NCBI GenBank assembly: GCA_019116025.1
Contig: DXCM01000085.1
Coordinates: forward strand, 1-45,484
Reading direction: 5' to 3'
Source of the DNA: Candidatus Companilactobacillus pullicola
GTDB taxonomy: Bacteria > Bacillota > Bacilli > Lactobacillales > Lactobacillaceae
Length of the DNA: 45,484 bases
Below, piece after piece: positions 1 through 23,402 of the stretch (position 1 is the first letter of the stretch; the number at the start of each line of letters is the position of its first letter). Made by a program: the position numbers and the translations under genes. The notes under the pieces were generated by a model. It was not told where the DNA came from and did not search any database. It saw nothing but the letters and a program-made list of their open reading frames with translations.

Positions 1-3000
1 GATAATATGGTTTACCTGGTGTAGTTACTTTTGTGAACGCACCCGTCGTTCCATCGATATTGTTCAAAGCATTAGTTGCACTAGTGAAGTATTGATCTCC
101 ATAACTTGTTTTTGTTGAATCAATGATTGAAGAACCTGTTCCATCATCTAACGTTATATTCGCTGCTCCATCATCTGTTAAATGATTTACAGTTTCGCCA
201 ACTTTAGCTTTGGCTCCTGTCATATTAGAAGTTACGGTTGGAACTGTCACTATTGGTGCTATCGTAACTTTTTGAAGATAAGTTACGGTATTATCATTCG
301 TATTAATTTGAGTATCAGTAGCACCATTGATTGTATAAGAATTCAAGGCACCTTCCGTCAAATGAAGAATAACCGTACGATAGTAAGTTCCCACTTTGCC
401 ATAAACTGTTCCATTTACTGGATCAGTTGTTGCACTTGTCTTTCCACTAAGAATATCAACTAAAGCCGCAGCTTCATCGGTATTATCAGCTGAATAATAA
501 TCTCCAAATGTTACTTTATCCACAAGTTTAGTGTCATTAATACCGGTAATCGTATTTGTTTCTTTACCTTGCTCTGAGGCAACATCAGAACCAGAATAAA
601 CTGTAACATCGCCATTAAGTTTTGGAGTTGCTTCTGCAGTACCTACAGTAACTGGTTGAGCAAATGTTACTGTGCCATCACCATTATCAATATAATCTGT
701 TCCGCTTGTACCATTTATTGCATAATCACGCAACGGTTTGCCATTAGCTAATGTTAACGTCACGAGACGATAGTATGGTTTATCCGGTGTGGTTACTGCT
801 GTAAATGAATCCGTTGTTCCATTTATATTGTTCAAAGCATTGGTTGCACTAGTAAAGTATTGATTTCCATAATTAGTTTTTGTTGCATCAATGATTGAAC
901 CCGTTCCGTCATCTAATGTTATATCTGTTGTCCCATTATTTTCACCTTTTAAATCACCTGCAGTTTCGCCAACCTTAGCAGTGGCTCCAGTTATTTTAGA
1001 TGTTACTTTTGGGACTGTTACAGTAACCTCTTGAAGATAAGTTACGGTATTATCATTCTTATTAATTTGGGCATCTGTAGCATCCTTGATTGTATAAGAA
1101 TTCAAGGCATCTTTCTTCAAATGAAGGATAACTGTACGATAGTAAGCTCCAGCTTTGCCATAAACTGTTCCATTTACTGGGTCAGTTGTTGCACTTGTCT
1201 TTCCATTTAGAATGTCTGCTAAAGCCGTAGCTTTATCGTCATTATCTGCTGGATAATAATCTCCGAATGTAACTTTATCCACGAGTGAAGTACCGTTAAC
1301 ACCTGTAATCGTATTAGTTTCTTCACCCTGCTCTGAAGAAATATCTTCACCAGAAGTAACTGTGACATCTCCTTTAAGTGTTGGAGTAACTTCAGCAGTA
1401 CCCACCATAACTGGTTGGGCAAATGTTACTGTGCCATCATCATTATCAATATAATCCGTTCCACTTGTTCCATTTATATTATAATCACGCAATTTACCAG
1501 TAATTAATGTAAGTGTTACGCGACGATAATATGGATCAGTGGCAGATGCAGTTGTAAATGGACCCTCTGTACCATCAGTGTTGCTCAAAGCATTAGTTGC
1601 ACTAGTAAAGTATTGATTTCCATAACTTGTTTTTGTTGAATCAATGATTGAACTTGTTTGAGTCGTTCCATCATCTAATGTTGTCTTTGTAGTTATATCT
1701 GTTGTTCCATTATCTGATACATTATCTGCCGTTTCGCCAACGCTAGCATTGGCTGCAGTTATACTAGACGTTACAGTTGGAGCTATTACATTGACCTTTT
1801 GAAGATAAGTAACTGTATTCCCTGTTGTATCAACACTGACAAAATTACTATCAGGATCATTATAATCAAAACCACTAGCCCATCCATCATATAGTGAGAT
1901 AGTTATTTCACGGTAGAAGCTTCCTGATTTGGCAAAGTTACCATTGTTGACCACACCGTCATCCACTTCGCCATTATTGAAAGCATCAACACTGTCGTAA
2001 AATTTACCCGAATAAGCAACTGCAGCGCCATCATCAAAACTGTAAGGTTTCGATGTGGCTATAGAAAATATTCCTGTAATATCGATAGACATCCCAGCAT
2101 CATCCGTGTTTTTTATCTCACTATCAGAAAGAACTGAGCCAATACTAACATCCTTATCAGGGATAGTTACTTCTGCTGTGCTAGAAATAAAATTAACTTT
2201 TTGAGCATAGGTAATTGTATCGCCGTTAATAGTATATTTCATGTCATTCGCATCAAATTGGATATTATCCCTTAAACTAGTTCCATCATTTAACGTGATA
2301 GTAACTTTACGATAAACTGCTTGTCCATTTAATCCAAATAGTTTTTTACTACCAGCTGGTTCATAAATATGGGAGGATGATCCTATACTAGTCCCATCAC
2401 TATTCAAAGCTTCTTCAGGGGTGTCATACCAACTTGTTTCATATGTAATACTTTTAATAAGATTATTGTTACCTTCCATTACAGTCGGAGCTATTTTATC
2501 AGCCGATGCCTTACTCGTAGCTGATTTACCCGACTTAACATTACTTTCCTTAAGTGTGGCAGTTGCATCAGCTTTGACTCCCTCCTTCACAGAGATAGAT
2601 TGCAAGAAGGTTACTGTGTTAGATGTTGAAGCAACTACTCCACTATTTGAAAAATCAATATTGGTAATATCTTTGTTTAAATAGAAGGTAATCTCTCTAT
2701 AACGCGTAGTATCAGCAGTATTCAAATCTCCAACTGAACTATCGATACTATTTTCAGTGTAATAAGTAGTACCAAATTTGACACCGTTAGTAAATCCGTC
2801 ATCATTTTTTGTTGTATCGATCAAACTAGTTACATCGCCGGCTGAATTTTTCAAACCTAATGTATCATTTGTTGTCGCTGCTAAATTTTTAACAGATTCG
2901 GCATCCTGTCCAGTTATATTTACAGTCACAGTCTCAATACTCTTAGTGACGTTGGCTGAAGGAGCTATATGAACCTTTTGAATATAAGTTACAGTGTTGT

Positions 3001-4963
3001 TATCTGTATTCAGACTATATGTTTGACCACTGGCCTCAAAATTATTGGTATCAATTGTACCCTTGACTAAGTAGAAGGTAATCGTACGTAGATAATCACC
3101 GGCTTTAGCAAAATTATTGTTGGCATCAACAACCCCAGGTTCAGCTTTGGCTTTACCATCTAGAATGTCACTATAAGTGCTGTTTCCATCATCAGCGTAA
3201 TAATCGGTTCCAAAACTAATTCCTTTATTACTACCTTGAGAAGGATCAATTAATGTCTCATCAGTTCCGTTACCTAATGTATCCCCTGAAACGTCACTGG
3301 TAGTACCCGATACTGGATTGCCAACTGTTGAACCTGGACTGGCAATATTAGCTGAGACACCATTTTGAACTGTAACTGGCTGTAAAAATGTAACAGTATT
3401 ATTGACACTATCGATTTTGCCATCTGTGGATGTAAGACCCTTTGTACTCCCACTAGCTAGGGTAAAAATCACTTTACGATAGTACGTTCCAGTCTTAGCA
3501 AATTTTCCATCAACAACTGCATCCTTTGCCACATTTTGTGCTGCATTATCAGAATAATAAGTTGGATCAATCTCAATTCCATTATTAGCAATTTCATTTC
3601 CTGATTCATCTTTTAATTCATCACCAGAGGTATCTGACAAAATAGAATTATCCGTTAAAGAAGCCGAAGAACCTATGGCAACTTTAGGGTTAGTTAAATC
3701 AGAACCAATAGTACCCTCAACAACAACTGGTCGAACGATAGTCAACATTCCGATATTTTGCTTGGTTGTCGGATTTGTTAACCTGTTGAAAGCATAGTCC
3801 TTACCATCTTTGGCCTGAGTATCACTGCCATTGATATATGTTTCATATGGTTGAATTACAGTACCTGTTAAATCATCATCTGCACCACTTAACATATATT
3901 CAATGGCTTTATCTTTTCCATTATCCAACTTAAAAGAAACAGTTTGATAATATGGTCCACCCGTAACAGCTTTACCATCTTTATCTACAGTGCCCTCTAC
4001 TTTGCTCGTAGAATCACTTGGATCAAAGGTATTACTTTGAGCATACCCTAAAGCAGCACTAGCTGAATTAAAGAGATGTTTTCCGTAAATAGCTTTTCTG
4101 CCCATATCTTCAGAATCACTAGTTAAATTAGAAAAATTATCAGTTACAGAAAGTGAATCATTTCCACTCTGTAATGGACTATTCTGATCCGAAATAGATG
4201 TACCATGCGATACCGACACTTGATTAGTATCTTTAGTTATATCAAATTTACTTGAATATACTTTGAAAGAAAAATCTGTTAAATCGCTCTTTACACCATA
4301 CAAAGAACCTTGTGGATAAGTTGTCCCATAACCATCTTTAGAATCTTTACTCTGAACTAAGTGAACCCCAACAGTTATAGGCAACTTAATATTTTTATTT
4401 TTAATTTCATATGCCAATTGTGCAAGACTATCAGGATCATTAGGGTCATTGGAATCATTAGAATTCGTACCAAGATGAGTAAGTGTTTCTGGGGAGTTTT
4501 TACCATCGACAGTAATTGATAAATAGCCCTTAATATCACGATAATAATAGTCTGTTAAATCCCAACTATCAGATGTCCCAAAATATCCAGGTGACGTGCC
4601 TAATTCCGTAACTTTATCTCGATCTTTTAATCCACTTATACCTTTATTATTTTGGATATCATAAAGATACTGTGGATTTTGGGGATTAAAGTAAAAGAAA
4701 CTAGTTCCCTTATCTGTATTTATCATATTTTGTAAAGCCGCTACCAAACTATCTGTACTTGAAATATATCTATCATCGAATTGGTTCCTAAAATTTGTCA
4801 GCATATCCTTTGCCGGTGCAGGTGCCTTATCTGGAGGAAGAATTTCTCCAGCTGCCTTAACGACAATTGTAGGCACCACATGATTAATAATAATTGGAGA
4901 ACCGGCGGCAAGCAGTGCGGCTGCGACGGCGCTACCTATATATTTAATATTCTTTTTTTTCAT
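1..4963 (-). CDS. Giant secreted surface repeat protein 1 (C-terminus outside window)
   Basis: The minus frame starting at ATG 4963 stays open for 1654 codons to the window edge, so the gene is cut at its 3' end. The ATG follows a GGAGGGGA ribosome binding site. Residues 1 to about 36 form a signal peptide: KKKNIKY basic start, an Ala/Leu core and a cleavage region near VVKA. A unique N-terminal region of roughly 300 residues follows (shared stretch NQFDDRY), then at least eleven repeats of about 125 residues. Each repeat carries a G.YYR.V.F.L-like strand and ends in a strand like TVTYLQKV.V. The signal peptide, N-terminal region and repeats all match the complete giant at 14025-23402, so the two are paralogues. 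By analogy it should end in wall-binding SLAP repeats, but that part is not visible. The repeat family is not one I can name. An adhesin or fibre role is inference. Confidence 0.9.
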   Translation of the reverse strand, partial: MKKKNIKYIGSAVAAALLAAGSPIIINHVVPTIVVKAAGEILPPDKAPAPAKDMLTNFRNQFDDRYISSTDSLVAALQNMINTDKGTSFFYFNPQNPQYLYDIQNNKGISGLKDRDKVTELGTSPGYFGTSDSWDLTDYYYRDIKGYLSITVDGKNSPETLTHLGTNSNDSNDPNDPDSLAQLAYEIKNKNIKLPITVGVHLVQSKDSKDGYGTTYPQGSLYGVKSDLTDFSFKVYSSKFDITKDTNQVSVSHGTSISDQNSPLQSGNDSLSVTDNFSNLTSDSEDMGRKAIYGKHLFNSASAALGYAQSNTFDPSDSTSKVEGTVDKDGKAVTGGPYYQTVSFKLDNGKDKAIEYMLSGADDDLTGTVIQPYETYINGSDTQAKDGKDYAFNRLTNPTTKQNIGMLTIVRPVVVEGTIGSDLTNPKVAIGSSASLTDNSILSDTSGDELKDESGNEIANNGIEIDPTYYSDNAAQNVAKDAVVDGKFAKTGTYYRKVIFTLASGSTKGLTSTDGKIDSVNNTVTFLQPVTVQNGVSANIASPGSTVGNPVSGTTSDVSGDTLGNGTDETLIDPSQGSNKGISFGTDYYADDGNSTYSDILDGKAKAEPGVVDANNNFAKAGDYLRTITFYLVKGTIDTNNFEASGQTYSLNTDNNTVTYIQKVHIAPSANVTKSIETVTVNITGQDAESVKNLAATTNDTLGLKNSAGDVTSLIDTTKNDDGFTNGVKFGTTYYTENSIDSSVGDLNTADTTRYREITFYLNKDITNIDFSNSGVVASTSNTVTFLQSISVKEGVKADATATLKESNVKSGKSATSKASADKIAPTVMEGNNNLIKSITYETSWYDTPEEALNSDGTSIGSSSHIYEPAGSKKLFGLNGQAVYRKVTITLNDGTSLRDNIQFDANDMKYTINGDTITYAQKVNFISSTAEVTIPDKDVSIGSVLSDSEIKNTDDAGMSIDITGIFSIATSKPYSFDDGAAVAYSGKFYDSVDAFNNGEVDDGVVNNGNFAKSGSFYREITISLYDGWASGFDYNDPDSNFVSVDTTGNTVTYLQKVNVIAPTVTSSITAANASVGETADNVSDNGTTDITTKTTLDDGTTQTSSIIDSTKTSYGNQYFTSATNALSNTDGTEGPFTTASATDPYYRRVTLTLITGKLRDYNINGTSGTDYIDNDDGTVTFAQPVMVGTAEVTPTLKGDVTVTSGEDISSEQGEETNTITGVNGTSLVDKVTFGDYYPADNDDKATALADILNGKTSATTDPVNGTVYGKAGAYYRTVILHLKKDALNSYTIKDATDAQINKNDNTVTYLQEVTVTVPKVTSKITGATAKVGETAGDLKGENNGTTDITLDDGTGSIIDATKTNYGNQYFTSATNALNNINGTTDSFTAVTTPDKPYYRLVTLTLANGKPLRDYAINGTSGTDYIDNGDGTVTFAQPVTVGTAEATPKLNGDVTVYSGSDVASEQGKETNTITGINDTKLVDKVTFGDYYSADNTDEAAALVDILSGKTSATTDPVNGTVYGKVGTYYRTVILHLTEGALNSYTINGATDTQINTNDNTVTYLQKVTIAPIVTVPTVTSNMTGAKAKVGETVNHLTDDGAANITLDDGTGSSIIDSTKTSYGDQYFTSATNALNNIDGTTGAFTKVTTPGKPYY
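15..1600 (-). repeat. Higher-order tandem repeat of about 760 bp inside giant 1
   Basis: Two alternating kinds of about 125-residue domain form a dimer of about 760 bp that recurs. The block starting with gttcaaagcatt occurs at 62 and 830, with a near copy at 1583. The block gaagataagttacggtat occurs at 274 and 1033. Matching stretches of 50-150 bp differ by only scattered substitutions, which indicates recent tandem duplication of the A-B pair. The array runs off the window edge, so the full copy number is unknown. Confidence 0.85.
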
Positions 4964-5024
4964 CACAAAATCCCCTCCGATTTTCGACGAGCAATTAATT
5001 AGCTTAATACCCTAAATTTTAGCA
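4964..5024 (-). promoter_or_regulatory. Promoter and ribosome binding site of giant 1
   Basis: Read on the minus strand, TGCTAAAAT (5024-5016) is an extended -10 box. A GGAGGGGA ribosome binding site sits 7-9 bases before ATG 4963, after a leader of about 50 bases. The same AGTGCTAAAAT box precedes the second giant at 23468-23460. No good -35 hexamer is visible in either, which is consistent with extended -10 promoters. Confidence 0.6.
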
Positions 5025-5332
5025 CTATAAAAATAAAAATAGCCCATATTTCGATAAACTTATATACTTCAAATGATTTAATTTATAAAATAAACGATGT
5101 TTTGACTTAATTGGAGTTTGAACACACCATTTTTTTGAAATCATTTTATTTTTTAATGATTTTCCTTCATTATTGATTGGAATATAAGCAAAAGTTATTA
5201 TTTTTAAATCATCACAATTTAAGAGCCTAATATAGAAAAAGAGGGATTTTGATTACCATCTATTTTTAAGATATGTGAAAAATTAATTGCATCAAAAAAA
5301 TCATCAATTAGATCAGCGTTAGTGGGTAATGT
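5025..5332. other. AT-rich intergenic region without a gene
   Basis: About 300 bases between the giant 1 promoter and the next terminator. No open frame with a ribosome binding site is seen. A small AT hairpin (gaaatcatt paired with aatgatttc, about 5138-5165) is the only structure noted. Upstream control sites for giant 1 may lie here, but none is recognisable. Confidence 0.5.
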
Positions 5333-5422: not shown

Positions 5423-6082
5423 TTAATCTTGATACTTTTTGACCATCTTAACTAACTTGTTAAATACTGGTTGAAGTTTCACTCCTGTCAGCTTTTCTTT
5501 CTCTGGAAATTGTTTATCAAATATTTCTGCTGCAGACTCATCAGCGACAAATGCTGGACTTTCAAAATACCTTCCAGTAATACCATCTAAGGCACCTGGA
5601 TAAAGTGGACAAACTTGATGTGCAGCCGCAAAATAATTGTCTGAAGTTCTAATCGTATAGTTTTCAGCAGGCACGAATCCTTGTCGAGAATAATAGTTAG
5701 GATCTCCAAATAAGAAAATTGCTCGGTAATCGTAATCCATTTCTCTAATTAGTTTTTTAGCATAATCGATCAGTGCTCCACCGATTCCTTCTTTTTGAAA
5801 GCTTGGCAACACTCCAATTGGTCCCAAACATAAGGTAGTGTATTTCTTCCCGTCATCGGAAATGATCATGCTTTTAGTAAAATCAATGTTAGCAATTATT
5901 TTCCCATTATAGGTTGCCACAATGTCTAATTCAGGTAAAAAGTCACTGCTATCGCGGATACTGTGTAACAGAAAATGTTCTATACAGCCTGGTGCAAACT
6001 GATTCCAAAAGGCTTCACGCAAGACAGTCTCCGTTTCTCTATAATCGGATTTTTCTTCAAGTCTAAATCTAATATCTTTCAT
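5423..6082 (-). CDS. GNAT family N-acetyltransferase
   Basis: The 219-residue protein has the GNAT acetyl-CoA site: the strand LCLGPIGV (85-91) leads into Q96-K-E-G-I-G-G102, the Q/R-x-x-G-x-G/A pyrophosphate loop of motif A. Further on, FLFGDPNYYSRQGFVPA matches the motif B region of YhbS-like acetyltransferases, with a tyrosine well placed for catalysis. The substrate cannot be told from sequence. A C-terminal extension of about 60 residues beyond the core is typical of YhbS-type members. ATG 6082 has AAAGGA upstream. It is transcribed alone, divergently from the cupin gene, and ends at the 5333-5374 terminator. Confidence 0.88.
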   Translation of the reverse strand: MKDIRFRLEEKSDYRETETVLREAFWNQFAPGCIEHFLLHSIRDSSDFLPELDIVATYNGKIIANIDFTKSMIISDDGKKYTTLCLGPIGVLPSFQKEGIGGALIDYAKKLIREMDYDYRAIFLFGDPNYYSRQGFVPAENYTIRTSDNYFAAAHQVCPLYPGALDGITGRYFESPAFVADESAAEIFDKQFPEKEKLTGVKLQPVFNKLVKMVKKYQD

Positions 6083-6206
6083 TATTTTTCCTTTGTATTA
6101 TAGTTCGGTTGTGGTTATTTCTAATCAATCATCAAGCGTTCCTCTACTTTAATTATTATTTGAAAAATATCATGTTATTTATTATTCGTCAACTTAGGAG
6201 GAAATC

Positions 6207-6608
6207 ATGAATATCACAGAACCTAAAAGTCAATTTGGTCTTGGTCAAAAAATCACCAACAATCCTTATTACAATGGAACTATATGGACCCATGAAATTC
6301 CTAACTTTGAGTATCCTATGATTGCCAGTTCCATAACTTTCTCTCCTGGTGTTCGCAACAACTGGCATTCTCAACCATCAGCACGGATCTTGATGGTTAC
6401 TGACGGAGAAGGCTGGTATCAGGAGCAAGGAAAAGCGGCTAAACATCTAACTGTTGGCGACATTGTTAAGGTTCCCGCTGGAGTCAAATATTGGCACGGT
6501 GCTACTAAGGATAGTTATTTCACTCATCTAATTCTTGAAGATTGGTCTAACAGTAAACCGATCTGGAGTGATCCAGTTAGTGATGCTGAATATAATCTTT
6601 TATCTTGA
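6207..6608 (+). CDS. Small cupin-domain protein
   Basis: A 133-residue single-domain cupin, close in pattern to carboxymuconolactone-decarboxylase-associated cupins (WH.HP..Q.L.VT.G.GW, then GD...P.GV.HWHGA). Cupin motif 2 is intact: G84-D-I-V-K-V-P90-A-G92 with H97. In motif 1 the usual metal ligands H-x-H-x3-Q read H54-x-Q56-x3-R60, so metal binding may be weakened or altered. AGGAGG lies just before ATG 6207. It is a monocistron divergent from the GNAT gene and ends at the terminator at 6625. Related cupins often sit beside aldo-keto and short-chain reductases, as here. The reaction is unknown. Confidence 0.85.
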   Translation: MNITEPKSQFGLGQKITNNPYYNGTIWTHEIPNFEYPMIASSITFSPGVRNNWHSQPSARILMVTDGEGWYQEQGKAAKHLTVGDIVKVPAGVKYWHGATKDSYFTHLILEDWSNSKPIWSDPVSDAEYNLLS

Positions 6609-6624
6609 AAAATATTTTTAAATC

Positions 6625-6673
6625 AAAAAACGTTCATATCAACCCGCAACATCGGTCAATATAAACGTTTTTT
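6625..6673. terminator. Bidirectional terminator between cupin and aldo-keto reductase
   Basis: The arms AAAAAACGTTCATATCAACC and GGTCAATATAAACGTTTTTT pair over 20 bases, with some G-U or mismatch positions, around a 9-base loop. The arm sequence is nearly the same as that of the terminator at 13712-13755. Confidence 0.85.
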
Positions 6674-6691
6674 TGTACTAATTGTTATATT

Positions 6692-7558
6692 TTAAATTTT
6701 TCCACCAAAGACTGGAAATACACTGGCATCGCCATATTCCATTTGGTCAAGTTTGGCCAAAGTCTTCATATCTTCTTCAGAAATTTCAAAGTCGATATCA
6801 GCGTTTGACTTCATATGATCTGGGTTGGCTGTCTTAGGTAAAACAACTACGTCCAATTGCCAATCGTAACGAATGCACAATTGTGGCACACTGACGTTAT
6901 ATTTAGCAGCCATCTTCTTGATTAGATCATTATTCATTGCGGCACCATGAGCAATTGGTGAGAATGCCTCAACGACAATCCCGTTATCTTGTGAATACTT
7001 GATAATATCAGTTGGTGTATCGCCAATATGAATTTGAACTTGATTGACAGCGGGTTTAGTATCACTATTCTTGATCAAATTATCTAAGTCTTCCTTTTGG
7101 AAACTTGATACACCGATAGTCTTTAACTTACCAGCTTTAACAGCGTCTTCCATTGCGCGCCATGTTTCCAAATTACCCTCAAAGTGACGGTCGTTGCCTT
7201 GATTAACCTCTTTCCAAGGTTGTGGATTGTGGATAATCATCATATCCAAGTAATCTAAGCCCATCTTATTCAAAGTTTCATCAATGGATTTCTTAGCCTC
7301 ATCATAATTCTTAATTTCAGCCGCAACCTTTGAATTAACGAAAAGTTGATCACGAGGTATTCCAGCATTGCGAACACCTTCACCGACGCCACGTTCATTG
7401 CCGTAAGCTTGAGCTGTATCGATATGTCTATAGCCTATCTTAACTGCATTCTTTACAGCGTCAGCTGTTTGATCATCAGGAATTTCCCAAACACCTAAAG
7501 CTAATTTAGGAATCTTAACACCATTATTCATCGTAAATGTTTCATCAAAAACTGTCAT
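6692..7558 (-). CDS. Aldo/keto reductase
   Basis: The 288-residue protein has the complete AKR catalytic tetrad: D47 and Y52 in the IDTAQAYGNE stretch, K77 in VNSKV and H110 in MIIHNP. It is an NADPH-dependent cytosolic carbonyl reductase of the AKR5/2,5-diketo-gluconate reductase-like type; the substrate is not predictable. ATG 7558 has AAGGAGGA seven bases upstream. It is the last gene of a minus-strand operon (acetyltransferase, SDR, AKR) and is 44 bases from the SDR. A second AKR of the same subfamily is at 30244. Confidence 0.92.
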   Translation of the reverse strand: MTVFDETFTMNNGVKIPKLALGVWEIPDDQTADAVKNAVKIGYRHIDTAQAYGNERGVGEGVRNAGIPRDQLFVNSKVAAEIKNYDEAKKSIDETLNKMGLDYLDMMIIHNPQPWKEVNQGNDRHFEGNLETWRAMEDAVKAGKLKTIGVSSFQKEDLDNLIKNSDTKPAVNQVQIHIGDTPTDIIKYSQDNGIVVEAFSPIAHGAAMNNDLIKKMAAKYNVSVPQLCIRYDWQLDVVVLPKTANPDHMKSNADIDFEISEEDMKTLAKLDQMEYGDASVFPVFGGKI

Positions 7559-7602
7559 TTAAAATCCTCCTTGTTTGTAACCGCTTCTATTATAGATTTA
7601 AA

Positions 7603-8352
7603 CTATACTTTTTGTCCTGTTGGACGAATTACCATTTCATTCACTGCCATGTTAGCTGGCGTATTAATCACAAAAGCCACTGCTGAAGCGATTTCTTCTG
7701 GTTGAAGAGCCATCATTTCTGAGCCCGGTTGTTTCATGGCATCTTTCAAACCATTACGTACTTCGTCATTGTTGATCGAATTAAAAAGTTCTGTTTTAAC
7801 GGAACCTGGGGCAATGATCGTGGTTTTAATATTATTCTGATGTTCCTCTTGGCGAAGTCCTTCCATGATTGCACGAACAGCGTACTTAGTACCTGAATAA
7901 GCCGCATATCCTGGCAAAACTTCATAGCCCAAAACTGATGATGTCGTAATCACATGACCACTTTTTTGCTTCTTCATAGTTGGTAAAACAGCTGCGATAC
8001 CATTTAGGACACCTTTAACATTAATGTCCATCATATTTTGCCATTCGTCGCGTGCAATTTGATCCAAATTATTAACTGGCATAATTCCAGCGTTATTGAA
8101 TAAGACATCGACACGTCCATACTTTTCAACGGTCTTATCAATCACATTTTGAACTTCATCAGCCTTAGTAACATCTGCTTCAACGGCCAGAATATCACCA
8201 TCTGGATTATCCTTTTTAATTTCTTCCAAGCGATTCATTCTTCGAGCAGCGATAGTTACCTTAGCACCCTCACTGGCTAAAAGTTTTGCGGTAGCGGCAC
8301 CAATACCACTAGAAGCTCCCATAATTACAACTACTTTATCTGTTAAACTCAT
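7603..8352 (-). CDS. Short-chain dehydrogenase/reductase
   Basis: A classical SDR of 249 residues. It has the cofactor loop G12-A-S-S-G-I-G18, NNAG at 86-89, and the triad S139, Y152 (YSGTK) and K156 with normal spacing. R37-R38 after the second beta strand suggests a preference for NADP(H). The closest general pattern is the YdfG/serine-3-dehydrogenase-like oxidoreductases; the substrate is unknown. Its ATG overlaps the TAA of the upstream acetyltransferase by one base (TAATG), so translation is probably coupled. Confidence 0.92.
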   Translation of the reverse strand: MSLTDKVVVIMGASSGIGAATAKLLASEGAKVTIAARRMNRLEEIKKDNPDGDILAVEADVTKADEVQNVIDKTVEKYGRVDVLFNNAGIMPVNNLDQIARDEWQNMMDINVKGVLNGIAAVLPTMKKQKSGHVITTSSVLGYEVLPGYAAYSGTKYAVRAIMEGLRQEEHQNNIKTTIIAPGSVKTELFNSINNDEVRNGLKDAMKQPGSEMMALQPEEIASAVAFVINTPANMAVNEMVIRPTGQKV

Positions 8353-8894: not shown

Positions 8895-8930
8895 ACGACT
8901 ACCTCATTTCCTAACTCATTGATTGATTTC

Positions 8931-8959
8931 ATTATAGAGATTGATTATGATAATGTTAA
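8931..8959 (-). promoter_or_regulatory. Promoter of the acetyltransferase-SDR-AKR operon
   Basis: On the minus strand, TTAACA (8959-8954) and a perfect TATAAT (8936-8931) are separated by 17 bases. It lies about 40 bases before the TTG start at 8894, in the divergent region shared with the nitroreductase gene. Confidence 0.7.
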
Positions 8960-9014
8960 ATACTTATTAACAATGGCTTACTATAACTTTTAGTAATACC
9001 AGAAAGGAAACCAT

Positions 9015-9665: not shown

Positions 9666-9677
9666 AACTGCCGTCCT

Positions 9678-9836: not shown

Positions 9837-9882
9837 TAAATCCAACTCGTTTGCCAATCATTTCAAAATCTAAATACTAAAC

Positions 9883-9949
9883 AAAAACAGACTCTATTAA
9901 GAAATTCAAACACATTTATGTGTCTCGAATACTTAATGAGTCTGTTTTT
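9883..9949. terminator. Bidirectional terminator between nitroreductase and esterase
   Basis: AAAAACAGACTC and GAGTCTGTTTTT pair at the base. An inner hairpin ACACATTTATGTGT makes a compound structure. The T-rich right arm overlaps the stop codon of the minus-strand esterase gene. Confidence 0.75.
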
Positions 9950-14024: not shown

Positions 14025-17000
14025 TTAATACCAAGCGTAGTTATTGAAGTGAACACCCTTTTCAGCCTTGATCCACTCATTGTCGCCAACGTGATAATAA
14101 GTATCGCCATTGACATCTTGAGCTTTATAATCAGTCTTCCAAGATGTTTCCTCGCCTAGAGAATAATCTTCGATAACCTCATTCTCTCTAGAATAGAGCG
14201 TATATAGAATATTCGTTCTATCGAGATTAATGATTCCACTAACCTTGCGGCCATCTCTGAAAATACCTGTATCAACAGCTTGTTCATAGACAACGTCGTT
14301 AGCATCGATCCATTCGCCAGTCGCAACGCGATATTGTTTAACCCCTTCTCGGTTAGTCCGATATTGATCAGTCTTCCAAGATGAGTCTTTAATCAAATCA
14401 CGGTTAGCAATTGCATTATTATTTTGATCATTCAATGGATAACTTGGTTGTTTTGATTCAACTGTAACGATTCCATTAACTGAAGTGTAAATCCAGCCTT
14501 CATCGTTAGTCTTACTACTATTTACAAAATCAACGTCATTAGCATCAATCCACTCGCCAGTTGCAACTCGATATTGTCTTACTCCCGCTTCATTAGTACG
14601 ATAGAGATCCGTCTTCCATGAAGTTTCTTCATCCAACTCACGATGTGCAATAGCTCTGTTTTCTTGATCATTCAATTGATATTCAGTTTGACCAGCTTTG
14701 GTCTTAACTACACCACTTACAGATGCGTAAGTCCAAAAATCAGCTTTAGCCTGATTGAAGTCAACATTACCGGCATCAATCCATTCACCAGTCGCAACTC
14801 GATATTGTTTGACACCCTCCTTGTTAGTCCGATAAAGATCAGTCTTCCATGAAGAGTTCTCTTTCAAATTACGATTTGCGATAGCTTCATTTTCTTGATT
14901 ATTCAATTGATATTGTTTTTGATCAGTCTTAGTTGTGACAATACCTTGAACTGGTGTGTAAGTCCAATCGCCATCTTCAGCGTTGTTTTGGTTAAGAACC
15001 ACATCGTCAGCGTAAATCCATTCGCCAGTTGCAACACGATATTCTGTGACACCAGCTTTATTAACACGAACTTGATCGACTTTCCAAGATGAATCCTTAC
15101 CCAATACACGATTAGGAATCTTCTCGTTATCTTGATTGTTCAAAGTGTAGTATGGATTATCACTCTTAGTTGTAACAACACCCTTAATGTCTGAGTAATT
15201 CCAATCATCATCAACAACATCAGTTCCATTACCAGTTTCTGTTGAAGAACCTGTGTTAGAACCTGTGTTAGAACCAGTATTGCCGCCGGTTGTACCACCT
15301 GTACTTCCACTATTACCACCAGTGTTGCCACCAGTAGAACTAGCAGGTTTAACGGTAACTGTACGGACATAAGATACTGTGTTATCAGCTTGATTTACTT
15401 TATAACCCTTACCAAATTTATAAGTACTTGCAGCACCAGCAATTAATTTAACGGTAATAACCTGACTGTAAGTTCCAGCATCTTTTAGACCAGTTACTGG
15501 TTGACCATCTGAATTGTAAAGCGTCGTATCAAAGTTAATACCACCGTCAGCAATGATTGACTTACCATTACTATCAACGATGTAAACATCATCAGGATTT
15601 TGCAAGGCCTTATCAGCAGTGTCAGTGCCATTGTCGACAGTCACATTATTGATTTTAGCAATCGCCATATTGGATTGGGCATCTGAAGCGTTAATCTTTT
15701 GAACAAATGTCACACTGTTGTCAGTTGCATCATAAGTTCCGCCGATGTTCTTGAATTCATTGGCATCATTAGCACCAGCAGTTAGATAGAACTTCACTGT
15801 ACGGTAATAAGTACCAGCTTTAGAAATTCTAGCACCATTAGCGTCGGCAGTCTTTTGAGTTAAATCACTGTCTGTAAAGAATTCTTGCCCAAGTTTAACG
15901 CCATATGTACCTTTAGTTTTATCAACCAATGAGTCACCAGCAGCATCTTTCAAGAAGTATTCCTTCGTATTGATCAAAGCTGGATTATCCTCATCAGGAT
16001 CAGCCTTTAGGTCCAATTTGTTAACTGAAGCATTGATATTAGCATCATTCTTTGTAACATTAACAGCTTGAACGTAGCTGATAGTTCCATCTGCATTCAC
16101 AATAGCATTTGGATCAGAAATACTATCCACGCTAATTGGTGTAGAAGGTGTGAACGTGATAATTCGGTAATAAGTGCCAGCCTTTGTGAATTGACCGTTC
16201 ACGTCAGCCAAACCATCGCTGTCCTGTTTCAAAGCATTTTGAACATCTGTGTAGTACTTATCTCCCGCAGAAACTGTGGCCGAAACAGCACCTAACTTAT
16301 TATTCAAAGTATATCCTGTTGTACCAGTCAATTTGGCATCATTAGTGGAAGTGCCAGCACTAACCGTGATAGGAGCAGCATTAATATCAACAGCTAAATT
16401 AGCCTTAGTATCGACTGAAACGGCTTGAACAAAGGATACGGTATTGCCAGAAATATGAGCTTCACTACCGAAGTCGTTTTGTGCAATAGCTTCAGGGCTG
16501 ACCGTGAAACTGATAACACGATAATACGTTTTAGCCTTAGTGAAGGCACCGTTGACGATATCTGCAGTCTTAGCAGCACCTGATGTAAAGACATCATCAT
16601 AATTATCGTAATAGTCCGTTCCATATGAAACAGCTGCATCAAGTTTGTTGCCAGCAGCATCCATCAAAGCATCACCAGTTGAAGTTACTGTGTCAGCTTG
16701 ATCGCCGACATTAGCCTTGGCATCTTCAACAATGTGTTTTGAAATGACACTATCACTGACATTGATTTGTTGCGCATAGATTACTGATCCATCTTTATAC
16801 ATGGCAAAGTCAGAGTCAGACCAACCATACTTATCAACAAAATCCGTACCAACTTTAAATATTACTTGACGATAATAAGTACCTTTATTGAAAGCACCAT
16901 CAGTTGCAGCATAAGGATCAACTTCTTCGCCATTTGATTTATCTAGAGCTCCTTTAGCATTCTTATAATAAGATATGCCTAATGTTGGATCAGTAAAACT

Positions 17001-20000
17001 ATCTTTACCAGCATTTAGGACGTAGCCCTTGTTGCTTGTTACAGATAGGTCATTTGTTCTAGTACCTGTCTTGATATTCAATGGTCCAACTGTAATTTGA
17101 ACAGCACCTGTATTCTCATTCTTAGCCACATTCACAGTTTGAACGAAGGATACCGTGTCACCAGAAACATGAGCATCTGTACCAAAATCATAATTCTTGG
17201 CATCTTCTGGATTAGTCAACTTGAAAATAATCTTACGATAATAGGTTCCAGCTTTAGTGAATTGTTTTTCAGAGTCAATACCTTCGGTTACTTTTCCAGT
17301 ACCTGAGAAAACATCATCTGCCTTATCATAGTAAGTCGATTCAGCAAAAACTGATGCTTTGATTTCGTTACCAGCGGTGTCAGTTAATGTACCAGTTGCA
17401 GTAGCTATTTTATCCGTTGACTCACCAATATTTGCATTAATATCTCCGAAGTTATGTGTTACAACTCCATTAGTTTTTACGTTGATCTTTTGAGCGTAAG
17501 TAACTGAACCATCATCATTTACTTTGGCATTTGGATCATTCAAAGTGTAATTCTTTGCAAAATCAGAAACCGTCTTAAACGTTACCAAACGATAGTAAGT
17601 TCCTTTATTAAAGAGGCCCTTAGTTGCTGCATTAGTATCTTCATTGGCACCATTCAACGCATCCTTAGCATTATCATAGAATTTACTATTATCTACGGTA
17701 GCTGTTCCTAATGATTTATTAGCTATATCCGTTAACGTATCTGTATTCTTAACCGAATCAACTGATGTTCCGACATTAACTGATATTGGATTTACATTGA
17801 TTCTGGCTGCATTTGGTTGTGAAACGACCACAGTTTGAACATAAGATACAGTGTTTTCTGTCGTATCAACTTTAGCATCAGTTCCAAAAGAATTATTAAC
17901 TATATCGGCATGACTTAGATGGAAGACAATCTCACGGTAATATGTATCTACTTTGACAAAATTTCCATCTTCAACTACTCCATCTATTGGTTCAGCGTTC
18001 TCATCAAAAACGTCTCCTGAATTAGCGTAATACTTATCTCCAAAAGTAACATTGGCAGATATTTCATTACCAGAATGATCAAATATTTGATTACCGTTTG
18101 AAGTTTCAGAGTCTTTTTCTGAAGAACCGATCGTCACTTTAGGTGTAGAAACATTATATTTCGAAACTGCATTTGCACTAGCATTGATTTCTTGAGCAAA
18201 TAGTATCTTGGTCCCATCTGCAGACCATGCCAAATTAGAGTTATTCAAACTATAATTTTCCTTATTTACTCCAGCATTTGGTGTAAAGACGAGTAGACGG
18301 TAATACTTACCTGCATTGAACTTACCACCACTAATGGCATTACTATCGGTTTTCGTACTTTGAGCTAACGCATCTGTTAAATCTCCATAATAAGCAATCT
18401 TGTCTGATGTTGACAAAGTTCCGACGCTATTATTATCGTCATCGGTTAATTTATAATTATTAGTCAATGTATTTTCGGCGGAACCAGCTGTTACATTAAC
18501 AGTTTCATCAGCATCTATATTGATATTAGTTTTATCAGCAACATTTACAGTCTGAACATAAGATACCGTATTACCAGAGATATGTGCATCTGTATCAAAG
18601 TTATTAGCTGCTAAAGCGTCATCAGTCAATGTAAAAGTGATTTTTCTATAGTAAGTTCCAGATTTGTCGAATTTTCCATCAACTACATAAGCTGACTTTG
18701 TGGCATCAACATCAAAAACATCGTCAAAATTATCATAATAATCTGACCCAAAGCTTGGGTTTTTTGAAATTAATATACCATTACTATCGAATAATTGATT
18801 TACTCCAGACTGCACGGTATTAATACTATTATTGACAATCGCCGTTCCATTAGTAATTTTAGGTTTTGCTACCGCAGTTGAATGACTAACGTTTACTGGT
18901 TGAGCATAAACCACCGTATGGGAATCGACTTTCTTCATATTATCGTCTGATACTTCATAATTGTTGAAGAAATCATCGTTGACTGTGAAGTATATTAGAC
19001 GGTACCAATCTCCCTCATTGAGGTAGTTTCCACTTATAGCATCAATTGCTATGAGTGACTTATCCTGTCCAGGGTTTAAAGCATCTTTCAATGCACCTTC
19101 TCGTGACTTGTAATATACATCCCCAACTTTAACAGACGTTGCCCCTACCAAAGTATAACTATCAGTTTGAGTTACCTTTTTATCTGTTATTGAAGTTTTT
19201 GCTTTTACATTTAAAGCTTTTACTGAGAACACCACATTAGTAGGTTCAACTTTGATTTGCTGAGCAAAAGTTACTGTATTGTGATCTTCATCAATATGGT
19301 AATCACCACTAAACGTATAAGAATCAACAGGATTCTTTAACGTAAAGGTTACTGCTCGATAATAAGTATCTGCAGTATTAGAAACTGTACCCAGTGGTTC
19401 ATTGCCATTTACTGCATTATCGGCAGTTTTATAATATTCGTTACCATACGTAATCTTGCCATCGGACATTATCGATCCCCCTCCATCACTGAGTATCAAG
19501 TCGACTTTTCCGTCTAAACTGTCAGAAGGTAAGGTTTCACCAACCTTTGTTACTCCCTGATCAATAACAGTCTCAACTTTACCAGTCGCAATATTCACTT
19601 TCTGAACGTACTCAACACTTTTACCATCACTAGACAATTTACCATTGCCAAAAGAATAATTACTAGAGGTTTCGTCAGACTTTAGTACAAATTTAATTAC
19701 TCGATAATAGGATCCAGATTTAGTGAATTTTTCACCATCTGTCACGTCCAAAATAGGTTTAACATTTTTATCTAAAATATCTTTCACATCATCAGAAATA
19801 TCATAATATTCTGTCCCATATGAGGTAGAACTAGTGTCTACAATCGATTTTCCTGATTCTTCACCTGAAGTTAAATCGTTATTACCAGCATCAACTGATT
19901 TTATGTCACTACCTACTTCGGAGAAAGCAGGATCAATATTCACCGTTACTGGATAACCTACATTAACTTTTTGAATATAATAACCTGCCGTAGTACCATC

Positions 20001-23000
20001 TGTTTTACCCGTCATATGTTCCAAACCATTATTAGCATTACCGAATGTATAATAGTCAGGTAAATTCTCAGCAGTAAACATAATCAAACGATAATATGTT
20101 CCGGGAGCCGTAAAGACTCGATTACCATCTTTAAACATCCATTGTTGATTTTGTATATCAGTTACTATATCTGTAAGACTCGAATCTTTGAAATAAAGAT
20201 CATTTCCATCTGTTTGAAATACGGATATCTTATCCGGATTAACTATTGGTTTATCAGTTTCATTTGATATGAAACTTATGCCGTCTGTATTATTATCAAT
20301 CGCCGACAATGGAGCATTAACGTCTATTGATATATCGGGTATCGTTACTATTACCCTAGGATCTATTACATTTATTTTTTGAGCGTAGGTAATGGTGTTG
20401 TTGCTTTTATCTATTGTATAGTCAACACCCTCCTCACCAGAAAACGAAGTATATCTACTTATATCACCCGGTAATTTGAAAGTAACTCTACGATAGTAAG
20501 GTTTAGCCTCCGTAAAAGTAGTACCACTCACCGGATTTTCATTTCTCACTGCATGAGTAACGTCATCAAAATATTCTTTTCCTACCGTTCCACTCGCTAT
20601 AATGTTCCCATTAGCGCTTAAAGAAGTAAGCATACTATCATCTATTACTTTGCTCATATCTTCATTAACAGTTACAACATCAGAAGGGAAATGATCAGTC
20701 TGCGGTATTAGTTTTGCTGAATTTATCACAATTTTTTGTAAATATTCAACCTTTGGAATTCTGCCATCAACTACCAGAGAGAATACTGGATCAAGATCAT
20801 TTACCTGAGGGAAAACAAAATTCTTTACATCCGTACCAGCACCTAAATGAAAACCAACTTTACGATAATACGTTCCTGGAACCGTAAGTACAGTGTGGAA
20901 CTGATTAAAAGTTATTCCGTTCTTTCCCTTTTGAGCATCATCTTCACTACTATAGAACTCGTCATCATCGCCCTCTAAACTTGCAATGCTTACTGAATCA
21001 GTCGTCAAACTTAAATTAGCATCAGCCGCTTTAAAAATTGTCTGATAATCTATACCTATTTGAGATGTAACATCAGGTACGGAAGCTTTCACTTCATTTG
21101 TAAGTACTCTAATTTTTTGAACAAACGTTACACTATTATTTTTCTCATCCTTTGCCCACGGAATATTATCACCAAAAGAAAGCGTATCAATATTGGCGGT
21201 AAGATAAAATGTGATTTTACGATAATAATTCCCTACCGTGGATAATCCAGTGGATGAAATAAAATTCTCCCCCAAACTAGGATCTGTATAGTATTCATTA
21301 CCAAAAACGATTCCGGTTACTTCTCCATCACTTAAGTCTTTACTTGGGTCCAACAACGAAGAGCTAGAATCCCCATTAGTGTTTATATCATCACCTGATC
21401 CTCTCTCTCTAGTCAGCGCCAATTGATCACTCTGATTTTTAGCTCCCAGATTTACAGTCAGATCACTAATACTAACTTTTACAGGTATTTGAGCGATATG
21501 AACTTTCTGTATATAAGTTATCGTATCGTTTCCTTTTGAATCTGTACCTAATTTATATTTAGAATTAGTCGTATCAAATGTATTCGTATCAATAGAATTA
21601 GCAATAAGGGTGTAAGTAATCGTTCTCAAGTAATCCCCTGATTTAGCAAATTCACCATTATTATCTACTACATCATCAGTGGCTGATAAACTATCACTAT
21701 TATTTAAAATGTCATCTTGTAATGTACTTTCTTGTTCAGGGATATATTGATAATATTCGTTGCCAAAACTTATGCCATTATCCTGTATTAGATCAGTGCT
21801 TAATCCAGTTGAAGAATCGACGCTTGTCAATGTATCATTTTTACTTATGGTATTACTTGTATCCCCAATTTTTGCATCTAATGGATTATCATAATTTGCT
21901 GTAGCGTCGTTTCTGACGTCAACTTCTTGAACATACGTTACAGTATTTCCATTGACATCTGAATCTATACTTTGGGGAAAAGCAGAGTAGTCACCAACAC
22001 TGCCATTACTCAATGTAAATTTGATTGTACGGTAATATTTACCGGGCTTAAGGAAATTAGTTGCAGATACTTCATCCTTTGTAGCCTTAAATTTTAAGTT
22101 TGAATCGGTGTAATACTCTGACCCTACTTCAACCTTACTTGTAGGAATGTTGTTTACAGCATCTTCGCCTGATTGATTGCTCAAATAATCATCTGCTGTT
22201 GGTTTTACATCACTTATCAAAGAGTTAACTTTAACTTGCGGAGTTGATAATTTGGCATTGATTGTTGCATTAGTAGACAACTTTCTAATTACCGTAATAG
22301 TCTTCGCATCACGATTCAAAACATAATCTTCTCCAGGAGTTGCTGCTGTATTACTTCCATTGATAAACGTTTGATAAGGGCTCACGGTAGTACCAGTTAC
22401 ATTAGATTTTTCACCCGTTAACATATCTTCAATAGCTGAATCTGCTCCACTAAGGTCATAAGAGACTGTCTGATAATAATCCCCAGATGATTTGATTTTG
22501 CCATCACTGAACTGATCTGCTGACGTATCACCTTCATCTGTAGCAGTCGGATCAAAATCTGATTCTGCTGCATATTCTGCAGCTCTTTTTGAGCTGACAA
22601 ACAAACTTTGACCAAATTTAGGTTTCTCAGCGAGAGCCAAGCTATTTTTATAATTAGAATCATTCGTATAGTTATCAGTGATCTTAAGTCCATTACCCTC
22701 CGTTGACAAAGATGCTAATGAAGAACCTACGGTAATTGGAACCATACTTTGATTTTTAGATATATCAAATCTACTTAAAGAAATCTTAAAACTAAATTCC
22801 AATAATGACGGATCAGTCACTGTAGCAATAGATGTCAGTGGGGCCAGATCGTTATCTTTACTTTCACTTATATGGATTGTTGCTGTTAATGGAAATTCAG
22901 AATCATTCATAGTTAAATTTTTTAACTTATCTGTATCGGAAATATCTATATTATTTCCATCTTTATCAGCTATAGTCATAGCAACCAACATATCGCGATA

Positions 23001-23402
23001 ATAGTAATTATCGTTACTTCCTGCATAAAAATAACTCGATGCTAATGGATTCTTCGCGTCCTTAAGCATTGCTATGTGACCGTTATTTTGAAAATCATGT
23101 ATATACTTAGGATTATTCAAATCAAAATAGTTGAAGTTATTTCCTGAATCTTCTGCCAAACTATTTAAAACCGTAGTAATACTTTCCGGACTAGCAACAT
23201 AGCGATCATCAAATTGATTTTTAAAAGCGGCTAACATACCACTGGGTGACAATTTATCATTCATGACATTGTGTCCCTTAATTATATCTGTATCCGCTTT
23301 AACAACTTTTATCGGATTCAACATAGGAACTATAATTGGTGAGCCCGCAGTAAGGAGTGCTACTGCAACAGCTCCACTTATATATTTTGTTTTTTTATTC
23401 AT
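14025..23402 (-). CDS. Giant SLAP-anchored surface repeat protein 2 (3125 aa)
   Basis: I place the start at ATG 23402, nine codons inside the longest frame, because GGGGGAGGG lies about 10 bases before it and nothing precedes ATG 23429. Residues 1 to about 37 form a signal peptide (NKKTKYISG, hydrophobic core, VVKA). A unique region follows to about residue 235 (shared NQFDDRY, NNPKYIHDFQNN), then 20 repeats averaging 122 residues, each with G.YYR.I.F.L and ending TVTYVQKV.V. Next comes a Gly/Asn/Ser/Thr linker and five repeats of about 78 residues with SSWKTD..R.N..GV.QYRVATGEWI, a SLAP-type wall-binding pattern (a DUF5776-like domain is the alternative name). There is no LPxTG motif, so attachment is probably non-covalent. 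The protein is acidic and almost lacks Cys, typical of an extended extracellular fibre. It is paralogous to giant 1. An adhesion or aggregation role is inference. Confidence 0.93.
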   Translation of the reverse strand: MNKKTKYISGAVAVALLTAGSPIIVPMLNPIKVVKADTDIIKGHNVMNDKLSPSGMLAAFKNQFDDRYVASPESITTVLNSLAEDSGNNFNYFDLNNPKYIHDFQNNGHIAMLKDAKNPLASSYFYAGSNDNYYYRDMLVAMTIADKDGNNIDISDTDKLKNLTMNDSEFPLTATIHISESKDNDLAPLTSIATVTDPSLLEFSFKISLSRFDISKNQSMVPITVGSSLASLSTEGNGLKITDNYTNDSNYKNSLALAEKPKFGQSLFVSSKRAAEYAAESDFDPTATDEGDTSADQFSDGKIKSSGDYYQTVSYDLSGADSAIEDMLTGEKSNVTGTTVSPYQTFINGSNTAATPGEDYVLNRDAKTITVIRKLSTNATINAKLSTPQVKVNSLISDVKPTADDYLSNQSGEDAVNNIPTSKVEVGSEYYTDSNLKFKATKDEVSATNFLKPGKYYRTIKFTLSNGSVGDYSAFPQSIDSDVNGNTVTYVQEVDVRNDATANYDNPLDAKIGDTSNTISKNDTLTSVDSSTGLSTDLIQDNGISFGNEYYQYIPEQESTLQDDILNNSDSLSATDDVVDNNGEFAKSGDYLRTITYTLIANSIDTNTFDTTNSKYKLGTDSKGNDTITYIQKVHIAQIPVKVSISDLTVNLGAKNQSDQLALTRERGSGDDINTNGDSSSSLLDPSKDLSDGEVTGIVFGNEYYTDPSLGENFISSTGLSTVGNYYRKITFYLTANIDTLSFGDNIPWAKDEKNNSVTFVQKIRVLTNEVKASVPDVTSQIGIDYQTIFKAADANLSLTTDSVSIASLEGDDDEFYSSEDDAQKGKNGITFNQFHTVLTVPGTYYRKVGFHLGAGTDVKNFVFPQVNDLDPVFSLVVDGRIPKVEYLQKIVINSAKLIPQTDHFPSDVVTVNEDMSKVIDDSMLTSLSANGNIIASGTVGKEYFDDVTHAVRNENPVSGTTFTEAKPYYRRVTFKLPGDISRYTSFSGEEGVDYTIDKSNNTITYAQKINVIDPRVIVTIPDISIDVNAPLSAIDNNTDGISFISNETDKPIVNPDKISVFQTDGNDLYFKDSSLTDIVTDIQNQQWMFKDGNRVFTAPGTYYRLIMFTAENLPDYYTFGNANNGLEHMTGKTDGTTAGYYIQKVNVGYPVTVNIDPAFSEVGSDIKSVDAGNNDLTSGEESGKSIVDTSSTSYGTEYYDISDDVKDILDKNVKPILDVTDGEKFTKSGSYYRVIKFVLKSDETSSNYSFGNGKLSSDGKSVEYVQKVNIATGKVETVIDQGVTKVGETLPSDSLDGKVDLILSDGGGSIMSDGKITYGNEYYKTADNAVNGNEPLGTVSNTADTYYRAVTFTLKNPVDSYTFSGDYHIDEDHNTVTFAQQIKVEPTNVVFSVKALNVKAKTSITDKKVTQTDSYTLVGATSVKVGDVYYKSREGALKDALNPGQDKSLIAIDAISGNYLNEGDWYRLIYFTVNDDFFNNYEVSDDNMKKVDSHTVVYAQPVNVSHSTAVAKPKITNGTAIVNNSINTVQSGVNQLFDSNGILISKNPSFGSDYYDNFDDVFDVDATKSAYVVDGKFDKSGTYYRKITFTLTDDALAANNFDTDAHISGNTVSYVQTVNVADKTNINIDADETVNVTAGSAENTLTNNYKLTDDDNNSVGTLSTSDKIAYYGDLTDALAQSTKTDSNAISGGKFNAGKYYRLLVFTPNAGVNKENYSLNNSNLAWSADGTKILFAQEINASANAVSKYNVSTPKVTIGSSEKDSETSNGNQIFDHSGNEISANVTFGDKYYANSGDVFDENAEPIDGVVEDGNFVKVDTYYREIVFHLSHADIVNNSFGTDAKVDTTENTVSYVQTVVVSQPNAARINVNPISVNVGTSVDSVKNTDTLTDIANKSLGTATVDNSKFYDNAKDALNGANEDTNAATKGLFNKGTYYRLVTFKTVSDFAKNYTLNDPNAKVNDDGSVTYAQKINVKTNGVVTHNFGDINANIGESTDKIATATGTLTDTAGNEIKASVFAESTYYDKADDVFSGTGKVTEGIDSEKQFTKAGTYYRKIIFKLTNPEDAKNYDFGTDAHVSGDTVSFVQTVNVAKNENTGAVQITVGPLNIKTGTRTNDLSVTSNKGYVLNAGKDSFTDPTLGISYYKNAKGALDKSNGEEVDPYAATDGAFNKGTYYRQVIFKVGTDFVDKYGWSDSDFAMYKDGSVIYAQQINVSDSVISKHIVEDAKANVGDQADTVTSTGDALMDAAGNKLDAAVSYGTDYYDNYDDVFTSGAAKTADIVNGAFTKAKTYYRVISFTVSPEAIAQNDFGSEAHISGNTVSFVQAVSVDTKANLAVDINAAPITVSAGTSTNDAKLTGTTGYTLNNKLGAVSATVSAGDKYYTDVQNALKQDSDGLADVNGQFTKAGTYYRIITFTPSTPISVDSISDPNAIVNADGTISYVQAVNVTKNDANINASVNKLDLKADPDEDNPALINTKEYFLKDAAGDSLVDKTKGTYGVKLGQEFFTDSDLTQKTADANGARISKAGTYYRTVKFYLTAGANDANEFKNIGGTYDATDNSVTFVQKINASDAQSNMAIAKINNVTVDNGTDTADKALQNPDDVYIVDSNGKSIIADGGINFDTTLYNSDGQPVTGLKDAGTYSQVITVKLIAGAASTYKFGKGYKVNQADNTVSYVRTVTVKPASSTGGNTGGNSGSTGGTTGGNTGSNTGSNTGSSTETGNGTDVVDDDWNYSDIKGVVTTKSDNPYYTLNNQDNEKIPNRVLGKDSSWKVDQVRVNKAGVTEYRVATGEWIYADDVVLNQNNAEDGDWTYTPVQGIVTTKTDQKQYQLNNQENEAIANRNLKENSSWKTDLYRTNKEGVKQYRVATGEWIDAGNVDFNQAKADFWTYASVSGVVKTKAGQTEYQLNDQENRAIAHRELDEETSWKTDLYRTNEAGVRQYRVATGEWIDANDVDFVNSSKTNDEGWIYTSVNGIVTVESKQPSYPLNDQNNNAIANRDLIKDSSWKTDQYRTNREGVKQYRVATGEWIDANDVVYEQAVDTGIFRDGRKVSGIINLDRTNILYTLYSRENEVIEDYSLGEETSWKTDYKAQDVNGDTYYHVGDNEWIKAEKGVHFNNYAWY
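14040..15215 (-). repeat. Five SLAP-like repeats of about 234 bp at the C-terminus of giant 2
   Basis: The phrase WxYxxVxGxVxTK recurs at about 15205, 14970, 14735 and 14490, with a diverged fifth unit near 14255, a spacing of about 235 bases. Units 1-4 are highly alike (YRVATGEWIDANDV). The last is degenerate (YYHVGDNEWIKAEKG) and ends the protein. The Gly/Ser/Thr linker just upstream (15220-15350) holds a 12-base tandem repeat encoding TGSN. Confidence 0.85.
15350..22700 (-). repeat. Array of 20 domain repeats of about 367 bp in giant 2
   Basis: Twenty copies of the YYR-type strand can be counted between the N-terminal region and the linker. The C-terminal half (about 15.7-18.7 kb) alternates two types. 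Type A ends FGTDAHISGNTVSYVQTVNV or similar. Type B carries a LNDPNA-like stretch before its last strand. A units recur near 16441, 17161, 17850 and 18571, so the A-B dimer period is about 700-720 bp. Repeats nearer the N-terminus are more diverged and do not alternate clearly. Confidence 0.85.

Follow-up and report, generated by a model that had tools for sequence, protein, structure and literature searches.

The window analysed here is a stretch of 45,484 nucleotides from Candidatus Companilactobacillus pullicola (contig DXCM01000085.1) and represents one entire contig (G000:C61) of a 2.93 Mb genome. Two open reading frames (ORFs) of its minus strand, 14025-23429 and 2-4966, were both present and encode giant proteins, designated giant A and giant B. 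An initial annotation had proposed two secreted-type proteins of 3125 and more than 1654 residues with tandem arrays of domains, and this was confirmed by the ORFs, the N-termini and the repeat copies. The second ORF is open at the window edge. Since the window is an entire contig, giant B is truncated by the assembly. The features of the two proteins, all on the minus strand, are as follows.

14025..23402, minus: giant A, complete, 3125 amino acids; ORF from the ATG at 23402, which is preceded by GGGGGAGGG
23295..23402, minus: signal-type N-terminus of giant A (residues 10-45 of P0001), from the sequence
22767..23294, minus: N-terminal domain of giant A with NQFDDRY; relatives recognised only among giants
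22260..22766, minus: long divergent first repeat copy of giant A (hmmsearch 222-357); aligns with the middle domain of short proteins
15345..22259, minus: 19 tandem repeat domains, A1-A19, of 112-140 amino acids (delimited copies; AlphaFold2 model of A12-A13)
15210..15344, minus: linker rich in Gly, Ser, Thr and Asn between array and anchor, from the sequence
14028..15209, minus: five SLAP-type wall-binding repeats of giant A (sequence, Pfam, SLAP profile)
2..4963, minus: giant B, N-terminal 1654 amino acids of an ORF running off the contig
4250..4846, minus: N-terminal domain of giant B, 40% identical to its giant A counterpart
3725..4249, minus: long divergent first repeat copy of giant B (hmmsearch 240-371)
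254..3724, minus: nine tandem repeats of giant B, B1-B9; a tenth copy is cut at 2-253

Giants A and B have in common the signal-type N-terminus, the NQFDDRY motif and the tandem domains. Of the 13 giants listed, 12 have an N-terminus like that of giant A; in the remaining one, from C. paralimentarius, the ORF starts downstream of the signal. The N-terminal region had been described as unique; NQFDDRY is indeed present in both giants, but residues ~222-390 are a divergent copy of the repeat domain. The probable C-terminal part of giant B was located on contig C25 (1147 amino acids, 68% identity to residues 1882-3014 of C. kimchii giant B). A stretch farther downstream likewise matched, and no sequence overlap joining C25 to the window contig was found.

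The repeat domain and the wall anchor

The array copies, 19 in giant A and nine plus the cut one in giant B, have a median pairwise identity of 25%, indicating a real but old repeat, with one R and one Q near-invariant. A profile of the repeat recovered its own copies at E values down to 1e-30, by construction. Part of the giant A array displays a two-unit period: all six pairs among A10, A12, A14 and A16 share 38-44% identity, and A11, A13, A15 and A17 share 24-39%, compared to 17-30% for neighbours within A10-A17. The same period appears in giant B, in which B6/B8 and B7/B9 are 75-77% identical. These two-unit periods indicate that part of the growth of the arrays occurred by pairs of units.

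The repeat had been considered unassignable to a known family. Sequence libraries indeed gave no match: a Pfam scan of 28 copies returned scattered single matches only (best E 0.013), NCBIfam a best E of 0.039 for an unrelated family, and PDB sequences nothing useful (best E 0.44 with the repeat profile and 0.12 with the whole protein). Besides SlpA, Pfam scans of the whole giants gave Cadherin_pro (E 0.2) and, in the signal region of giant B, Myco_arth_vir_N (E 0.14). No known adhesive domain was found by the Pfam and NCBIfam scans of whole proteins, and no described family matched the repeat by sequence. The repeat is a domain family without match in the 2025 Pfam library, and may be so far undescribed. 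It does have relatives, however, as it corresponds to the middle domain found once in a short S-layer-like protein (below). An AlphaFold2 model of A12-A13 was confidently beta (predicted local distance difference test, pLDDT, 92.6), and its fold fell near the broad immunoglobulin (Ig)-like group. Each repeat is thus predicted to be a stable Ig-like beta domain, in keeping with the expected beta structure but close to a broad group of known folds. The model of the N-terminal domain (pLDDT 78.9) was of mixed helix and strand by DSSP.

The five SLAP-like repeats reported at the end of giant A are visible by eye, and a profile of SLAP proteins picked out all five. The Pfam family PF03217 (cut-off 23 bits) was matched by the last repeat at 27.5 bits when the C-terminal part was scanned and at 26.7 bits in a six-frame search, and fell under the cut-off (19.4 bits) on the whole protein; the other four repeats were not listed above the cut-off singly. 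The absence of an LPxTG motif was upheld for the four sortase variants searched in giant A (LPQTG, LPKTG, LPETG and LPHTG). The giants would thus be anchored non-covalently, in the SLAP manner. The whole genome contains 41 SLAP-domain matches at E ≤0.001, indicating that this anchor is widely used here.

Short S-layer-like relatives and distribution

Proteins with a weak, single-copy match to the repeat were found in four congeners (five proteins: L051, L074, L076 and two in L077). They consist of a signal peptide, an N-terminal domain, one middle domain and two SLAP repeats, with a standard length of ~490 residues; the signal peptide is present in four of the five, the exception being a shortened ORF. 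In profile comparisons, the repeat matched the middle domain of seven short proteins with a probability of 98.8-99.1 (E 1e-17 to 5e-17) and five proteins of another genus, g38, with a moderate probability of 91-92, whereas ten column-shuffled controls all remained at ≤0.2. A profile of the short form was built from the five short proteins, the L072 protein described below and the N-terminal parts of two giants. It detected near full-length proteins in all 12 genus genomes drawn, eight of which had contributed no sequence to the profile (G000, G027, G031 and G034 had). One of these eight, G007, has the short form though it lacks a match to the repeat profile. Near full-length short forms were also present in four of the five g38 genomes listed (G404 contributed sequence). 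These results identify the repeat with the middle domain of an S-layer-like protein that is short and occurs throughout the genus, a distant version being present in one other genus. The giants are related to this short SLAP protein and were probably derived from it by amplification of the middle domain.

Homology of the N-terminal domains of giants and short proteins, suggested by the motifs GDQFADRD and NQFDDRY, was not upheld: profile comparison gave a probability of 0.1, or of 6.8-7.7 over 11 columns, above five shuffled controls. Comparison of the repeat or short form with two Lactobacillus SLAP proteins, a weak test given their number, revealed no sequence relation, and the solved SlpA and SlpX chains gave no sequence match. 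A leader of ~90 bases is very similar among the six short genes compared (L051:6333-7793, L074, L076, L086, L087, L089); it includes a hairpin-like stretch, and the start codon is TTG, hinting at strong expression and a stable or regulated mRNA. One 1.5 Mb genome harbours six adjacent S-layer-like matches, in L077 and beyond (G034:C2 249741-261419).

Giants were identified in records of C. suantsaicola, C. kimchii (two), C. paralimentarius, C. futsaii, C. halodurans and one record titled uncultured Lactobacillus, amounting to at least seven loci, the search having used a single-peptide pattern that misses others. When 60 relatives were searched with the repeat profile, 32 matched, all among the 36 genomes of the same genus (own genome included); 13 of the 36 carry at least five repeat copies in total. 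An order-wide draw gave eight matches in 395 genomes, six of the genus and two others. The first of these (L072) proved to be a SLAP protein carrying a distant repeat copy. The second (L073, G239), in the sensor part of a histidine kinase, looks like a chance match and was discarded. Of 398 genomes drawn phylum-wide, the own genome was the sole match. The draws are samples in which rare relatives may be missed; within them, the repeat domain looks clade-restricted, apart from the distant version in one other genus. At L061 (G020) and L062 (G015), the giant locus holds three and two shorter proteins, respectively, with 1-3 copies each, in place of a giant. Plasmids searched with giant A DNA and its N-terminal protein, and phages searched with the latter, gave no match. 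No description of Companilactobacillus giants was found in the open-licence literature (titles and starts of abstracts).

Mosaic genes and a proposed origin

Thirteen giant sequences were compared, leaving out G013 (array in two ORFs with unread stretches) and the shorter SLAP proteins of G020 and G015. C. paralimentarius does not appear in the table of N-terminal identities, its ORF beginning past the signal peptide; a stop lies just before the mature part of its giant A (L068 near 5401 / L054), reflecting a broken gene or an assembly error. DNA was compared by dc-megablast, keeping matches of at least 200 bases. Profiles in 120-residue windows were noisy, and were not used, for four pairs differing in copy number or lineage (C. 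kimchii giant A/C. futsaii, C. suantsaicola/G004, C. kimchii giant B/G031 and G023/C. futsaii).

Giant A of C. paralimentarius and giant A of C. kimchii are 88-98% identical in the 13 C-terminal windows, then 76%, and then 34-53% up to the N-terminus. Their DNA is 91.4% identical over positions 1244-3672 of the C. kimchii locus (L052) and 90.7% over 9145-16037, with no match from 3672 to 9145; the gene spans 4026-14642. The match between the window and C. kimchii breaks at 3672 and 9124. In contrast, the window and C. paralimentarius giant A match without a break at 69-96% throughout, so that C. kimchii is probably the carrier of the replaced segment. In its N-terminal domain, C. kimchii giant A shares 68% identity with C. 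futsaii and 32% with giant A of the window.

A second case was provided by G031 (locus L058). Its DNA matches with C. futsaii and G023 run through the upstream region to positions 9390 and 9375, respectively, end 76-91 bases inside the gene (start at 9299), and resume at 13367 through the anchor. Repeats 1-4 of G031 are closest to G019 (64-71%) and repeats 10-12 to G023 and C. futsaii (78-94%). Across the trio formed by G031, G023 and C. futsaii, identity is 97-98% over the last 150 residues and 29-38% in the N-terminal domains. Copies of G023 and C. futsaii mostly pair at 74-92%, one C. futsaii copy being without partner, although identity is 36% between the N-terminal domains and 45% between the first copies. 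We conclude that there are two clear replacements, in C. kimchii giant A and G031, and a likely third, at the N-terminus of G023 or C. futsaii. Thus, the comparisons indicate that segments were replaced between close species, as is clearest for the distal part of giant A, whereas the base and anchor were kept.

Recombination best explains the distal replacement. It is very improbable that the divergence arose by gradual, fast evolution of an exposed region without recombination. Exposed protein tips often evolve fast, and the replaced regions can still be aligned at the protein level, at 34-53%, as would be expected from gradual change. However, the DNA edges are sharp with ~91% identity on either side, a G019-like distal part is combined in G031 with a G023/C. 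futsaii-like base, and the N-terminal domain of C. kimchii giant A resembles that of C. futsaii rather than that of the window. Recombination between near-identical repeats, changing the length and reach of a conserved head as in the Periscope proteins (PMC8201768, seen in extract), appears improbable as well. The giants compared do differ in copy number (6 to 28), and five of 11 copies in giant B reach 74-77% identity, so that giant B is partly of this type. Giant A is not: its copies are at most 48% identical, its array is collinear, copy by copy, with that of C. paralimentarius, and the head and distal half change rather than length alone. One observation weighs against replacement of the distal half as a general rule. 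Giant B changes most in its middle: contig C25 and C. kimchii giant B are 81-95% identical in six C-terminal windows and 48-61% farther out, and the first three copies of giant B of the window pair in order with those of C. kimchii at 61-67%, whereas later copies do not. Variation of the distal part is therefore not a strict rule.

The explanation that we favour, with somewhat more confidence than doubt, is that giant fibre-like surface proteins with a conserved base and a recombining exposed half arose from a short SLAP protein. Amplification and segment replacement are read from the sequences themselves. In the giants, the middle domain is amplified to 6-28 copies, and giant A carries five SLAP repeats in place of the two of the short form. 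With a domain length of 4-5 nm, 20 Ig-like repeats would form an elongated stalk of very roughly 80-100 nm. By analogy with work on SlpA, the SLAP repeats would hold the protein non-covalently on teichoic acids, with the N-terminus farthest out (PMC11181022, seen in extract). In giant A and at the G031 locus, close species have kept the proximal array and anchor at the sequence level, whereas the distal array, N-terminal domain and, once, the upstream DNA were replaced, for which recombination is the best explanation. The SLAP anchor and the predicted beta stalk agree with the non-covalently bound fibre of large reach proposed by the initial annotation; the reach and the binding we infer. Such a fibre, constant at its base and changeable in its outer half, fits an exposed surface for recognition or escape. 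Interaction could lie with the exposed half, on which binding partners (in adhesion or co-aggregation) or phages would exert diversifying selection. More tentatively, an S-layer assembly domain might have been turned into a giant fibre whose outer half (N-terminal domain, distal repeats and at times upstream DNA) is exchanged between lineages as a cassette on a kept base and anchor, forming a surface-identity system for recognition or phage escape.

Alternatively, the giants could be auxiliary S-layer proteins, whose repeats make lattice contacts and strengthen the S-layer rather than protrude. This is rather unlikely, since it presupposes an S-layer in Companilactobacillus, a median repeat identity of 25% is ill-suited to a regular lattice, and the distal half of giant A was swapped without the proximal half. 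In addition, SlpA was level with unrelated folds in the fold comparison (root-mean-square deviation of 15.5 over 188 residues).

A protruding fibre derived from a short SLAP protein would illustrate a path from an S-layer-like protein to a giant via domain amplification, and the swap of an outer half on a kept base offers a natural experiment. The tip appears as if under pressure to change in some related species. Members of Companilactobacillus are common in sourdough and in fermenting vegetables, where the fibres could determine how cells stick to food matrices or yeast partners or how sensitive they are to phages.

Neighbouring genes, upstream DNA and known systems

Three further features were recorded around the giant genes.

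5423..13690, no single strand: ten ORFs between the giants, mostly of oxidoreductase, hydrolase and transferase type (Pfam)
23457..23472, minus: weak shared upstream element AAAGTGCTAAAATNNA of giant A, from the sequence
5013..5028, minus: the same element upstream of giant B, with one mismatch, from the sequence

Eight of the ten intervening ORFs (NmrA, orf121, oxidoreductase, hydrolase, nitroreductase, hexapeptide transferase, SDR and AKR) also lie between the giants of C. kimchii, in the same order and with 78-97% identity. The comparison kept matches of at least 35% identity, and the GNAT and cupin ORFs adjoining giant B had none at the C. kimchii locus. The giant pair is thus a conserved arrangement on this sequence comparison, both giants being in the same order in C. 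kimchii. A RibD_C-type gene was present at 12 of 15 loci (not at L050, L051 and L053). As reported, no mobile element separates the giants among the Pfam matches of the intervening ORFs, and mobile-element families were absent from those of the twenty ORFs scanned. Rfam gave no match in the window at gathering scores. Both a TauE/SafE-type transporter (24228-24560 and 24573-25037, minus) and an adjoining AraC-type regulator (25071-25466 and 25491-25940, plus) are split into two ORFs, as if broken.

Among 20 upstream regions, the element AGTGCTAAAAT was found before both giants of the window, C. suantsaicola and G004, and in altered form before G013 and C. kimchii giant B. It was absent before C. 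kimchii giant A, G019, G031, G023, C. futsaii and C. halodurans, and before six short genes and two other SLAP genes. A regulon was rejected, as five matches were obtained genome-wide (one mismatch allowed) compared to four for the reversed control.

The published systems below were compared from extracts of the articles. Lactobacillus S-layer proteins (SlpA/SlpX; PMC11181022) have the same signal type, with N-terminal domains followed by C-terminal SLAP repeats, and their size and plan are shared by the short relatives. The giants differ from SlpA by up to 28 domains before the anchor instead of two and, for giant A, by five SLAP repeats instead of two. In comparison to Rib domain proteins of streptococci (PMC6936399), the repeats of the giants are far less alike, and the anchor is of SLAP type with none of the four sortase motif variants. 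No Rib match was present among the 15 Pfam families listed for the 28 repeats at E ≤1. The acidophilus Ig-like domain surface protein is IgdA. It is likewise linked to the S-layer, but has a Big_3 domain and a GW anchor (PMC7090030), whereas the giants had no Big_3 match in the Pfam scan. The nearest published case is that of Giant1-5 of Apilactobacillus kunkeei, likewise a lactic acid bacterium (PMC12863079), in an article whose main text does not contain the words Companilactobacillus, SLAP, Ig-like or S-layer. These extracellular proteins of 3000-8000 amino acids are also clustered and subject to intragenic recombination, and giant recombining surface proteins of lactic acid bacteria are thus already known in kind. 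The A. kunkeei proteins have alpha-helical repeats and, in Giant1-4, an N-terminal beta-solenoid (PMC12863079), whereas the Companilactobacillus giants combine predicted beta repeats with a SLAP anchor.
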